Assembly: GCA_029267335.1 (NCBI GenBank)
Contig: JAJUJC010000004.1
Coordinates: 124,001-188,000 of the forward strand
DNA from: Intestinibacillus massiliensis
Lineage (GTDB): Bacteria > Bacillota > Clostridia > Oscillospirales > Butyricicoccaceae
Length of the DNA stretch: 64,000 bases
Reading direction: 5' to 3'
Shown: positions 33,706-37,776 of the stretch, piece by piece
How the letters are laid out: each line of letters opens with the position of its first letter
Position numbering within the stretch: position 1 is the first letter of the stretch
The notes under the pieces: generated by a model
Databases searched by the model: none
What the model was told of the DNA's origin: nothing
What the model saw: only the letters and a program-made list of their open reading frames with translations
Position numbers and translations under genes: made by a program

Positions 33706-34635
33706 TCAGCGGCATTTTGCGAGAAGCTCGCGCCATTTGCGGTCGACATCCTTTTGTGCGACCTCGAGCATCCACTCGTTGCCCTTGGCGAACATGTGCT
33801 TGAAGCGCCCCTGCTTGCGCAGGAAATCCGCAACAGGAAGCTTGTTTTGCGGCGCATAGGACAGGTGATATACGCCGTCTACGACCTCGTACAGCGGCCA
33901 GACGCAGGTCTCGACCGCGAGGCGGCAGATTTCCGCCATTTCGTCCGCGGGATAGCGCCAACCGCGCGGGCACGGGCTCATCACGTTGAGAAATGCCGGA
34001 CCGGGGGTGTAGATCGCGCGGTGCGCCTTTTCGTGCAGATCGCGGAAGTTGCCAAGAAAGGTCGTCTGTGCGACATAGGGGATGCCGTGCGCGACCATAA
34101 TGGAGGTCAAATCCTTTTTGTTCTGACGCTTGCCGTCGGATACCTTGCCGGTCGGGGAAGTCGTTGCATCGGCAAAACGCGGGGTCGAGCTGGAGCGCTG
34201 AATACCGGTGTTCATGTACGCTTCGTTGTCATAGCACACATAGACCATGTCGTGTCCGCGCTCCATCGCGCCCGACAGCGACTGGAAACCGATGTCATAT
34301 GTGCCGCCGTCGCCGCCAAAGGTGATGAACTTGAACGTATCGTCGATCTTGCCCTTCTTTTTAAGCACGTTGTACGCCGCTTCCACGCCGCCGCAGGTAG
34401 CTGCCGCGTTTTCGAACGCGCTGTGGATGTAGCTGTCCTCCCACGCGGTATAGGGATAGAGGAACGACGACACCTCCAGACAGCCCGTCGCATTCGTCAC
34501 GACCGCGCGATCGTCCTCGTTCAGCGCACGCAGCACTGCACGCACCGTGATGCCCGCGCCGCATCCCGCGCACAGGCGATGACCGGGCGCAAAGCGTTCC
34601 TTTTTCTGCACTTCGGTTTTCAGACTGTATCCCAT
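33706..34635 (-). CDS. porB: 2-oxoacid:ferredoxin oxidoreductase, beta subunit
   Basis: 309 residues of the PorB/VorB family, which binds thiamine pyrophosphate. The N-terminal CAGCGAGI and the central FGGDGGTYDIG (TPP/Mg site) are present, with further Cys in TNATGCLEV and SPCPRGWRYP for the 4Fe-4S cluster. ATG 34635 has AAAGGAG upstream. It is the last gene of the gamma-delta-alpha-beta operon, 1 bp after porA. With the other subunits it interconverts 2-oxoacids and acyl-CoA using ferredoxin. Pyruvate or branched-chain specificity cannot be read directly. Confidence 0.94.
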   Translation of the reverse strand: MGYSLKTEVQKKERFAPGHRLCAGCGAGITVRAVLRALNEDDRAVVTNATGCLEVSSFLYPYTAWEDSYIHSAFENAAATCGGVEAAYNVLKKKGKIDDTFKFITFGGDGGTYDIGFQSLSGAMERGHDMVYVCYDNEAYMNTGIQRSSSTPRFADATTSPTGKVSDGKRQNKKDLTSIMVAHGIPYVAQTTFLGNFRDLHEKAHRAIYTPGPAFLNVMSPCPRGWRYPADEMAEICRLAVETCVWPLYEVVDGVYHLSYAPQNKLPVADFLRKQGRFKHMFAKGNEWMLEVAQKDVDRKWRELLAKCR

Positions 34636-34636
34636 G

Positions 34637-35821
34637 TCATTCGCTCCTTTGTCCGATGTGGCGATAGGTTTCGCCGGTTTTTCCGGTGCGCGCGATGTCC
34701 GCAAGCGCATCGAACACGGTGCACGCGGTGTCGACCGTGAAGTCGCGGCCGCCCAGACCGTAGACGTAGTTCACGCAAAGCGGGCGCTGCGGCAGATCGT
34801 AGAGCGCGCTGCGCGTTTCCGCAAAGAGCGGGCCGCCCGCAGCGGAAAAGCTCTCTGCCTTGTCCATGACCGCGACCGCCTTGCAGCCCGCGAGCGCGGC
34901 CGCAAGCTCTTCCATCGGGAAAGGGCGGAACACGCGCAGCTTGACCATGCCGACGCGGCGCCCCTGTGCGCGCAGCTGATCGACCGCCGCGCGCGCCGTG
35001 CCCGCGGACGAGCCGATGAGCACAAGGGCAAGCTCCGCGTCCTCCATGTGGTAGCTCTCAAACAGACCGTATTTGCGGCCGGAAACGCGTTCAAATGCCT
35101 CCGCGACCTGCAAGATGACCGGCTTCGCCGCTTTCATCGCCTCCGCCTGCTGGATTTTATGCTCCATATAGTAGTGCGTCACGTCGTAGGGGCCGACCGC
35201 GAGCGGATTTTCGTGCTTGAGCAGATAGTGCTCGGGCTGATACTCCCCGACGAAGCCCTTGACGACGTCGTCCTCGAGCAGCTCGATATTTTCCACACCG
35301 TGCGAGGTGATGAAGCCGTCCTGACAGATCATGACCGGCAGACGCACGGCGGAATGTTCCCCGATGGGCATGGCTTGCAGGAAGTTGTCATATGCCTCCT
35401 GATTGGTTTCGGAATAGATCTGGATCCAACCTGCGTCGCGGCAGCCCATGGAATCGGAATGGTCGTTATTGATATTGATCGGGCCGGTGAGTGCGCGGTT
35501 GACGCACGCGAGCGTGATGGGCAGACGGCTCGACGACGCGACATAGAGCAGCTCGAACATAAGCGCAAGACCGCACGACGAGGTTGCCGTGACCGCGCGC
35601 CCGCCCGCCGCCTGCGCACCGATGCAGGTCGAGATTGAGGAGTGCTCGGACTCGACCGTGACAAATTCGGTATCGACCAGTCCGTCCGCGACATACTGCG
35701 CGAAGTACTGGGGAATTTCGGTCGAAGGGGTGATGGGGAATGCACCCATTACGTCAGGGTTGATCTGGCGCATCGCATAAGCGACCGCTTCGTTGCCTGA
35801 AAGGCGTTCTCTGATCGACAT
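34637..35821 (-). CDS. porA: 2-oxoacid:ferredoxin oxidoreductase, alpha subunit
   Basis: 394 residues, the PorA/VorA subunit carrying the pyrimidine-binding part of the TPP site. Landmarks are FPITPSTEIPQYFAQYV, TVESEHSSISTCIGAQAAGG, GPININNDHSDSMGCRD and a C-terminal GMVKLRVFRPFPMEEL (transketolase C-like domain). The start MSIRERLSGNEAVAYAM follows a GGAGG site. It lies directly between porD and porB with 1-bp gaps. Confidence 0.95.
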   Translation of the reverse strand: MSIRERLSGNEAVAYAMRQINPDVMGAFPITPSTEIPQYFAQYVADGLVDTEFVTVESEHSSISTCIGAQAAGGRAVTATSSCGLALMFELLYVASSSRLPITLACVNRALTGPININNDHSDSMGCRDAGWIQIYSETNQEAYDNFLQAMPIGEHSAVRLPVMICQDGFITSHGVENIELLEDDVVKGFVGEYQPEHYLLKHENPLAVGPYDVTHYYMEHKIQQAEAMKAAKPVILQVAEAFERVSGRKYGLFESYHMEDAELALVLIGSSAGTARAAVDQLRAQGRRVGMVKLRVFRPFPMEELAAALAGCKAVAVMDKAESFSAAGGPLFAETRSALYDLPQRPLCVNYVYGLGGRDFTVDTACTVFDALADIARTGKTGETYRHIGQRSE

Positions 35822-35822
35822 G

Positions 35823-36128
35823 TTATGCCTCCTCCTTTGCAAATGAGATCGCCCCGAACGGGCAGACCTTGACGCAGATGCCGCAGCCCTTGCAATGATC
35901 GAGGTCGAAGTCGAGCCGCTGTCCGTTCACGACCGGGATCGAGCTGTCCGGACAGAACGGCACGCACAGCATGCAGTGCTTACACTTCTCGGCATCGAGT
36001 ACAGGAGTGCGCGTGCGCCATTCGCCCGTATGGGTCAGGCGCGAGGTGCCGCCCTCGTAGATCTCGCCGCCGACCGTCATGCGCTGCCACGGCGTATTTT
36101 CGTGGATTTCCGCTGCTTTGAAGCTCAT
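35823..36128 (-). CDS. porD: 2-oxoacid:ferredoxin oxidoreductase, delta (ferredoxin) subunit
   Basis: 101 residues with two 4Fe-4S sites: CKHCMLCVPFCP and CKGCGICVKVCP. This subunit passes electrons from the catalytic alpha/beta core to free ferredoxin. The start ATG at 36128 overlaps the end of the gamma gene by 4 bp. An ORF frame extends upstream but only this part is family-like. Confidence 0.95.
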   Translation of the reverse strand: MSFKAAEIHENTPWQRMTVGGEIYEGGTSRLTHTGEWRTRTPVLDAEKCKHCMLCVPFCPDSSIPVVNGQRLDFDLDHCKGCGICVKVCPFGAISFAKEEA

Positions 36129-36712
36129 CCTACCTGCACCTCCTGCATCGACTGGGTCAGCGCCGCCATGTTGCCCGTAATGACCTGCGGCTTGTGCGAG
36201 AATTTGTGACGGAAAGAGGCTTCCATGTCCGCAACGAACTTGTGCGGCTCGACCACGCCCGAGACCTTGACCGCCGCCGCGAGCATGGGCGTGTTCGGGA
36301 AGTTCTTGCCGAGCGTTTTTTCCGAGATGGCGCGCGCGTCGATCGTGCACACCTTGCCGGAAAAGCCGCCGAGCAACGGACGCACCTCGTCGGGCGACTT
36401 TGCGGTGTTGACGATGATCGCGCCGTCTGCGCGCAGTCCGCGCGTCACATCGACCGCGTCGAGCAGCGTTTCATCGACGACAACGACGTAATCCGGCTCG
36501 TAAATGTTGGAGTGCACCGTGCAGCGCTCGTCGGAAATGCGGTTGTACGCGGTGATCGGCGCGCCCATGCGCTCCGGACCGTACTCCGGAAAACCCTGCA
36601 CATACTTGCCCGAGGAAAACGCCGCGTCCGCAAGCAGCAGGCATGCGGTCTTTGCGCCCTGACCGCCGCGCCCGTGCCAGCGGATCTCGACCGGTTTGTT
36701 CGTCTTTTTCAT
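36125..36712 (-). CDS. porG: 2-oxoacid:ferredoxin oxidoreductase, gamma subunit
   Basis: 195 residues of the PorG/VorG family (also called PorC). It opens MKKTNKPVEIRWHGRGGQG, the CoA-binding Gly-rich signature. It is the first gene of the four-gene operon, immediately downstream of the T-box terminator, with GGAGGGG 8 nt before the ATG. The separate gamma subunit and four-subunit order match archaeal-type POR/VOR enzymes, not the large single-chain clostridial PFOR. Confidence 0.94.
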   Translation of the reverse strand: MKKTNKPVEIRWHGRGGQGAKTACLLLADAAFSSGKYVQGFPEYGPERMGAPITAYNRISDERCTVHSNIYEPDYVVVVDETLLDAVDVTRGLRADGAIIVNTAKSPDEVRPLLGGFSGKVCTIDARAISEKTLGKNFPNTPMLAAAVKVSGVVEPHKFVADMEASFRHKFSHKPQVITGNMAALTQSMQEVQVG

Positions 36713-36740
36713 GACTTGACCCCTCCATTTATCGTTTCAG

Positions 36741-37024
36741 TTCTTTTTTGGCAATAAAAAAACGACCGCCCTGTAAAAGGACGATCGTTAAAAGCTGTTT
36801 TAACGCCGCTGTACCACCTGTTACCGTACCATCATACGTCTCCCGATAACGGCGGGACGCCGTCACGATCTCCCCTGCAAAGCGCAGGTTTGGCGTGCAA
36901 CTCAGGAGTGATATTCGGCTGCCTGCTACTGGTACCGGGCTTGCACTGTCCCCGGCTCGCTGCGACGTTCGCGTGCGGCGGCTTACTGTCTCCGTCTTGG
37001 TCTTTGCGTTCTTTTGTGCTAACG
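36741..37024 (-). promoter_or_regulatory. T-box riboswitch leader, predicted tRNA-Ile (ATC specifier)
   Basis: Read on the minus strand. Stem I has the AGTA S-turn (GACAGTAAGC), the AG-bulge/loop region (GTGCAAGCCC) and the specifier loop GAAT-ATC-ACTCC-TGAG. Aligning GAA-n-NNN-A with the Geobacillus glyQS T-box (GAAA-GGC-AUUC-UUGAG) puts the codon at 36910-36912 as ATC, isoleucine. The T-box sequence AGGTGGTACAGCGG lies near 36809-36823; its TGGT can pair with an ACCA tRNA end. A terminator AACGATCGTCC / GGGCGGTCGTT plus seven Us ends just before porG. Uncharged tRNA-Ile would thus switch on porGDAB. Confidence 0.9.
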
Positions 37025-37030
37025 AGGTAA

Positions 37031-37059
37031 AGTATACGCTGAAATTCCGCGGTGTGCAA
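37031..37059 (-). promoter_or_regulatory. Sigma-A promoter of the T-box/por operon
   Basis: On the minus strand TTGCAC (37054-37059), 17-bp spacer, TATACT (37031-37036). Transcription would start near 37024, giving a leader of about 310 nt before porG. Confidence 0.8.
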
Positions 37060-37236: not shown

Positions 37237-37776
37237 TTGGACAAACAGGTGATCGTCGTCAACGGACGCGGCGGGGTCGGAAAGGACACGCTTTGCAGGC
37301 TTGCAGCGCGGTTTTATCGCGTGCGCAACATTTCCTCTATCACGCCGATCGTGGAGATCGCGCGCTATGCGGGCTGGGACGGCGTGAAAACACCCGCGTC
37401 GCGCCGCTTGCTTTCGCAGCTCAAGCAGGCGTTTACCGAGTGGGGCGATCTGTCGCAGCGCTACTGTCTGGCGCAGTATCAGGAATTTCTCGCGGGGGAC
37501 GAGGACATCCTGTTTGTGCACATCCGCGAGCCGGAGGAGATCGAGCGCTTCCGCCGCGCGATCGGCACGCCGTGTCATACGCTGCTCGTGCGGCGCGGCA
37601 GCCGCGAAGCGCCGCTCGGCAACCGCTCAGATGACAACGTCGCGGAATATGCTTACGACTACTATTTTTACAACGACGGGCCTCTCGCGCGCATGGCGGA
37701 CAGTGTACGCGCCTTTTTCGCGCACATTTTGTCAGATACGCCGCCGCAAACGCCCTATCGTTGGCATTTTGACTGA
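37237..37776 (+). CDS. P-loop kinase-like protein of unknown substrate
   Basis: 179 residues opening MDKQVIVVNGRGGVGKDTL, a Walker A (GRGGVGKDT) with the lysine-aspartate arrangement of nucleotide/nucleoside monophosphate kinases. DEDILFVHIREPEEIERF resembles the strand and LID-proximal region of such kinases, and LLVRRGSREAPLGNRSDD follows. No specific family is certain. TTG 37237 is chosen with AGGAGG 8 nt upstream. It is 17 bp ahead of the zinc-ribbon gene. Confidence 0.8.
   Translation: MDKQVIVVNGRGGVGKDTLCRLAARFYRVRNISSITPIVEIARYAGWDGVKTPASRRLLSQLKQAFTEWGDLSQRYCLAQYQEFLAGDEDILFVHIREPEEIERFRRAIGTPCHTLLVRRGSREAPLGNRSDDNVAEYAYDYYFYNDGPLARMADSVRAFFAHILSDTPPQTPYRWHFD

Follow-up and report, generated by a model that had tools for sequence, protein, structure and literature searches.

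Why would an operon for a ferredoxin-dependent 2-oxoacid enzyme stand behind an amino acid-responsive leader RNA, and which amino acid would that leader report? A T-box lets its operon be expressed when the tRNA that it recognizes carries no amino acid. The locus considered here lies on the minus strand of the window, a 64,000-nucleotide stretch of the 2.2 Mb genome of Intestinibacillus massiliensis (Butyricicoccus group). Among named relatives, the closest one found is Butyricicoccus sp. Marseille-Q5471, whose PorA is 91% identical. The first-pass annotation placed a complete T-box leader directly before a por operon, and every element that it named is indeed found in its place on that strand.

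The full leader (37059-36756) begins with a sigma-70-type promoter (37031-37059), in which TTGCAC (37059-37054) and TATACT (37036-37031) are separated by 17 nucleotides. The helix below the specifier loop pairs GGAG (36990-36993) with CUCC (36908-36905). The loop itself carries the AGUA S-turn (36984-36987) on its 5' side, invariant in 43 aligned leaders, and the codon AUC (36910-36912) on its 3' side, which reads GAA-U-AUC-A-CUCC-UGAG. Beyond the stem I distal hairpin (helix 5; 36934-36956) comes the T-box sequence AGGUGGUAC (36811-36819), whose GGUGGU is present in 88/88 homologues; a tRNA with an ACCA end would pair with its UGGU bulge (36816-36813). The intrinsic terminator (36756-36789) is formed by AACGAUCGUCC and GGGCGGUCGUU, followed by seven U residues. 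The CGUCC on its 5' side could pair instead with the side strand of the T-box, to which it is complementary, as an antiterminator. Terminator and antiterminator would thus exclude one another by pairing, and a switch between them is predicted. A ribosome-binding site, GGAGGGG (36720-36726), and the genes porC, porD, porA, and porB follow. (On the other strand, a divergent open reading frame at 37237-37776 begins with the P-loop sequence VNGRGGVGKDT; it resembles a nucleotide kinase and has no Pfam or NCBIfam match.)

Is the leader a genuine T-box? A search with covariance model RF00230, proposed as a check in the first-pass annotation, aligned the leader from end to end (37007-36774), scoring 43.8 bits with E = 2.1e-8 over 601 bases, and a genome-wide search recovered it as well (E = 1.8e-8). 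This score falls under the curated gathering score of 93, and a default Rfam scan of the window therefore misses the leader. However, the undoubted T-boxes before trpE, trpB, alaS, and thrS of the same genome score 91, 71, 63, and 46 bits, all below 93, so that the gathering cut-off is no fair judge here. The fold of the single sequence has no unusual stability (z = -0.03), and proof of the structure consequently rests on comparison of homologues.

That comparison supplies it. Of 108 related loci, 88 have the T-box and specifier in the right order, and in 87 of them the leader also has a promoter-like TTGNNN-N16-18-TANNNT sequence. In an alignment of 43 non-redundant leaders, the consensus comprises 45 pairs, 29 of them with changes on both sides, a number reached by none of 500 shuffles. 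Paired cells amount to 93.3%, against 82.2% in shuffled and 41-47% in slid alignments; no shuffle equals the observed values. The GGAG/CUCC helix (helix 1) is paired in 100% of cells; the distal hairpin is 96% paired, with compensatory changes at all five of its pairs; and 8 of the 12 pairs of the terminator helix (helix 9) have changed on both sides. The leader upstream of porCDAB is confirmed as a T-box. It is probably of class I, terminating transcription and responding to tRNA, a judgement made jointly with the overall explanation developed below.

Which tRNA would it bind? The codon assigned by the first-pass annotation was ATC, and whether homologous operons keep it was left as a question. 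They do: AUC stands in 88/88 homologues, retrieved by a search pattern that also admitted ATT and ATA. The flanking bases vary, with A 50, T 26, G 8, and C 4 on the 5' side, and A 81 and C 7 on the 3' side. The register was calibrated by eye on about 33 T-boxes with targets that identify the amino acid (valS, leuA, ilvB, pheS, aroF, trpE, trpB, trpX, alaS, and thrS), taken from this genome and three relatives. The codon lies 5 nucleotides before NGAG in about 26 of the 33; 6 nucleotides before it in six (three thrS, two ilvB, and one pheS); and 4 nucleotides before it in one (leuA, locus L159). For the por leader, the 5-nucleotide frame gives AUC; the 6-nucleotide frame would begin at the variable base; and the 4-nucleotide frame gives the serine codons UCA or UCC. 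The T-box database TBDB (PMC7778990) describes the preferred frame as codon, one nucleotide, and helix, and has AUC in 99% of isoleucine T-boxes and UCA in 6% of serine T-boxes.

A specifier shifted by one base, so that the T-box senses tRNA-Ser instead of tRNA-Ile, must nonetheless be weighed. The UCA/UCC triplet is likewise kept in all homologues, and the leuA leader offers the one calibration precedent for the shorter spacing. Yet the spacing of most calibrated T-boxes gives AUC, and in TBDB UCA is scarce among serine T-boxes, AUC near-universal among those for isoleucine. Moreover, the bulge is UGGU in 88/88 homologues, whereas the two tRNA-Ser genes of the window both terminate in G73, which would favor UGGC. 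The serine reading is thus very improbable. The discriminator of tRNA-Ile is generally A73; a pattern search of this genome did not locate the tRNA-Ile gene itself. Together, the calibrated spacing, the variable base before AUC, the TBDB frame, and the UGGU bulge identify the por specifier as an isoleucine codon. The genome has eleven T-boxes, and that of por is the only one for isoleucine.

The genes under this leader are all on the minus strand. They comprise porC (36125-36712), for a gamma subunit of 195 residues (Pfam POR PF01558, E = 9.6e-40; TIGR02175 PorC_KorC, above cut-off); porD (35823-36128, with its ATG at 36128), for a delta subunit with two 4Fe-4S motifs (TIGR02179 PorD_KorD, above cut-off); porA (34637-35821), for the alpha subunit (Pfam POR_N, E = 5e-71, with PFOR_II); and porB (33706-34635), for the TPP-binding beta subunit (Pfam TPP_enzyme_C, E = 6.9e-19). 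With all four subunits and their TPP and Fe-S domains recognized by Pfam and NCBIfam, the operon is, by its domain content, that of a four-subunit 2-oxoacid:ferredoxin oxidoreductase.

Its place within the superfamily is less sharply drawn. The best NCBIfam model for PorA, PorA_Arch, gives 472.6 bits, below the equivalog cut-off of 550, and that for PorB, pyruvate synthase PorB (PRK11865), gives 362.9 bits, below 405. The 2-oxoisovalerate (VOR) models also stay below their cut-offs: 328.7 against 646 for alpha (PRK08366); 119.4 against 399 for VorB (PRK07119); and 296.4 against 405 for beta (PRK11864). Pyruvate-type scores thus exceed 2-oxoisovalerate-type scores for both the alpha subunit (472.6, 439.4, and 386.8 versus 328.7) and the beta subunit (362.9 versus 296.4). 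PorCDAB shares with the pyruvate synthases and pyruvate:ferredoxin oxidoreductases (PorA_Arch, PRK11865, and PDB 9bt4, its nearest solved relative) the gamma-delta-alpha-beta composition, the TPP domain, and the two 4Fe-4S motifs. In the alignment, the substrate Arg and Asn also have conserved counterparts.

In contrast to the PorA_Arch and PRK11865 enzymes, PorCDAB falls below the equivalog cut-offs, is predicted to be controlled by tRNA-Ile, and carries N and S at the flank of the pocket. These residues, N121 of PorA and S57 of PorB, are nearly invariant across the subfamily and flank the substrate pocket by alignment; pyruvate enzymes carry W/F and M/W in their places. This makes a role with pyruvate only doubtful, and these two positions leave room for a substrate that is neither pyruvate nor 2-oxobutyrate. 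No residue at the pocket was found to distinguish enzymes with a T-box from those without one. Changes of the N121/S57 type are common to both groups, and are therefore uninformative on direction or substrate.

Could this simply be one more pyruvate synthase, or a PFOR paralogue, that merely passed under an isoleucine T-box and has no special role in isoleucine supply? The best NCBIfam matches are pyruvate synthase models, and 9bt4 is a pyruvate:ferredoxin oxidoreductase. However, the genome already encodes a separate, single-chain, full-length PFOR of 1192 residues (a motif search found no T-box upstream of it in this genome). A sugar fermenter has pyruvate in plenty, which leaves control of its synthesis by tRNA-Ile without clear use. 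The T-box, moreover, has been retained in many families, and its codon does not vary. An ordinary paralogue of this kind accordingly seems quite improbable. The por enzyme is instead likely, as one element of our overall explanation, to be a dedicated second 2-oxoacid:ferredoxin oxidoreductase, apart from the fermentative PFOR.

How widely is the pairing kept? Within the family, 87 genomes were compared, and 34 of them have a porC orthologue. The leader was found at all 30 upstream regions of this family set first examined, and is present in 32 of the 34 por carriers; the two without it belong to another genus. A set drawn from GTDB, which overlaps the family set in species, contains 80 loci, 78 of them readable, and the leader stands at 59 of the 78 (one locus, L058, meets a contig end before the specifier). 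Carriers include Syntrophomonas, Desulfoscipio, Formimonas, Clostridium aminobutyricum, Papillibacter, Emergencia, and Hornefia. Agathobaculum desmolans, Butyricicoccus, and Syntrophomonas are carriers available in culture. The pairing of T-box and por is thus conserved across many families of Clostridia, and the proposal of a 2-oxoacid:ferredoxin oxidoreductase operon under an isoleucine T-box is borne out by this conservation and by the four subunits identified. Mapped on the PorA tree, the T-box label requires 4 changes, compared with 17 when shuffled; this fits an association of long standing with a few losses.

Loci without the leader have features of their own. The metagenome-assembled genome L082 has lost the T-box upstream of porC and keeps a terminator-like remnant, GCGAAGG...CGTCCC. 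At L067, L084, L088, and L118, also without a T-box, a divergent gene for a PAS/AAA+ activator of the sigma-54 type lies upstream of porC. In non-T-box relatives with the same pocket residues, genes for a CoA-transferase-like protein and for a sigma-54 type activator lie adjacent, which points to a different control of the same enzyme subfamily, one that is probably catabolic. Because these relatives look catabolic by their neighbors, direction is unreadable from the protein. At L094 and L105, the first 5 kb hold a second por paralogue with a CoA-transferase-like gene, placed immediately before the T-box por operon; catabolic and anabolic copies may stand here side by side.

The leader is more telling, since induction by uncharged tRNA-Ile leads one to expect an anabolic enzyme, one that makes isoleucine precursors and does not burn them. 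This suggests a model. When isoleucine is short, uncharged tRNA-Ile(GAU) would base-pair at two sites, the AUC specifier and, by the ACCA end, the UGGU bulge, stabilizing the antiterminator so that porCDAB is transcribed. With charged tRNA-Ile, the terminator (36789-36756) would form and the operon would be off. The enzyme would most likely run in the carboxylating direction, converting acyl-CoA, CO2, and reduced ferredoxin to a 2-oxoacid and CoA, and its product would feed the supply of isoleucine precursors. With propionyl-CoA, the leading candidate, the product would be 2-oxobutyrate, to be carried by IlvBN, IlvC, IlvD, and a transaminase to isoleucine. We infer the tRNA response, the direction, and the link to isoleucine, and hold it likely that por encodes a carboxylating, isoleucine-directed enzyme under an isoleucine T-box. 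In the first-pass annotation this reductive reading came with a branched 2-oxoacid as product. The reductive, isoleucine-directed part stands as the best inference; the branched product fares less well, with subunits that score as pyruvate-like and with IlvC and IlvD co-occurring.

The substrate is the least certain part of the model. Among the family genomes, IlvC or IlvD is found in 33 of 34 por carriers, and por in only 1 of the 24 genomes that lack both, counts whose significance is overstated by the relatedness of the genomes. This co-occurrence agrees with 2-oxobutyrate made from propionyl-CoA no less well than with a branched product. Taken with the pyruvate-like scores and the strict isoleucine codon, which suits an intermediate of isoleucine only, it gives a moderate lean to 2-oxobutyrate, and propionyl-CoA is tentatively favored over 2-methylbutyryl-CoA. 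(IlvC and IlvD also serve valine and leucine, so that their association with por may only mark prototrophy.) Biochemical work on anaerobes, reviewed in PMC7476758, has documented that propionyl-CoA is carboxylated with ferredoxin to 2-oxobutyrate on the way to isoleucine.

In its simplest form, the 2-oxobutyrate hypothesis would have por replace a missing source of this acid. That version was rejected. This genome encodes threonine ammonia-lyase (ilvA). Nearly all T-box-por genomes tested have either ilvA, in gut lineages, or cimA, in those of Syntrophomonas and the sulfate reducers. The only ones seen with neither lie outside the family: the L076 genome and Hornefia, where H. butyriciproducens has no ilvA, and no cimA above cut-off. 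There is also no mutual exclusion, por and ilvA being unrelated within ilvC+ilvD+ genomes (p = 0.67). The por route to 2-oxobutyrate is thus not needed to fill a gap. With the usual sources mostly present, it looks like an added route for starvation, not the sole one.

The same observation can be turned toward 2-methylbutyryl-CoA, which would be carboxylated to 3-methyl-2-oxopentanoate, one transamination from isoleucine, allowing salvage of exogenous branched acids that bypasses IlvBCD. Where ilvA or cimA is usually present, a bypass of a later step would be more sensible than a second source of 2-oxobutyrate. The strict isoleucine codon and the pocket-flanking residues unlike those of pyruvate enzymes also agree with this route, and PorA of Clostridium sporogenes, of the same superfamily, makes 2-methylbutyrate from isoleucine (PMC11271093). 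Yet one-step salvage would be most useful in genomes without IlvC and IlvD, exactly where por is almost absent; the NCBIfam scores favor pyruvate-type over 2-oxoisovalerate-type subunits; and a branched-chain enzyme should serve valine and leucine too, whose specifiers were not seen. Salvage of 2-methylbutyryl-CoA is therefore possible, though on balance unlikely, and a substrate different from both acyl-CoAs is doubtful. Propionyl-CoA keeps the tentative preference.

One further gene travels with por. A CbiT-like gene of about 305 codons lies closely 3' of porB or just upstream of the leader in many loci (L099, 7160-8098; L085, 2818-3717; and about 27 others). The C-terminal half of its product is CbiT-like by profile (E about 1e-11), and its predicted fold best matches 3e05 (TMt 0.82), but SAM motif I is degenerate (SGESIAVEAA), and no Pfam family scores above cut-off. 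Among 25 strong carriers of the gene in the family, 24 have por (Fisher p = 1.6e-12, from related genomes), and the co-occurrence holds also where the genes are unlinked; a motif search found no separate T-box on unlinked copies. An extended scheme can be drawn in which porCDAB and the CbiT-like gene form a reductive-carboxylation pathway induced by isoleucine starvation, with the CbiT-like protein a new component: an enzyme, a maturation factor, or a regulatory factor. As an enzyme it might possibly be a 2-oxoacid methyltransferase, letting butyryl-CoA serve as precursor. The degenerate motif and the absence of the gene from this genome and window speak against an enzyme, and the latter makes the gene an accessory part. 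The extended scheme is improbable.

The RNA itself is an ordinary T-box. It shares with the isoleucine T-boxes before ileS, ilv operons, and isoleucine transporters the stem I, AGUA S-turn, specifier loop, and AUC codon; the GGUGGU T-box; the choice between terminator and antiterminator; and the position before an operon. It differs in its target, a ferredoxin-dependent 2-oxoacid oxidoreductase in place of a synthetase, a transporter, or an operon known for biosynthesis. Neither PMC2494555 nor PMC3766115 has a ferredoxin oxidoreductase target in its main text, and this target class appears new to the literature searched. Other T-box surveys may mention one, and such loci may be among the automatic entries of TBDB.

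Anaerobes are also reported to make isoleucine from 2-methylbutyrate. Early work cited in PMC7476758 reported that they make it from propionate with ferredoxin, and the 2-oxobutyrate synthase activity described there is the same reaction as that proposed here for the por enzyme, feeding isoleucine. No gene assigned to this step was found in the literature searched, clostridia included. The PorA enzymes of Clostridium sporogenes and Parabacteroides merdae (PMC11271093) are likewise 2-oxoacid:ferredoxin oxidoreductases, taking branched-chain 2-oxoacids, but by description they are catabolic and close to 2-oxoisovalerate enzymes.

Since a T-box names its amino acid, the por leader points to a candidate gene set for the isoleucine step, and brings the question within direct reach of experiment in gut and syntrophic bacteria that are in culture. 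It would set an anabolic ferredoxin oxidoreductase apart from the many that are annotated merely as pyruvate synthase. If the model is true, short-chain acids of the gut would feed amino acid synthesis under starvation control.
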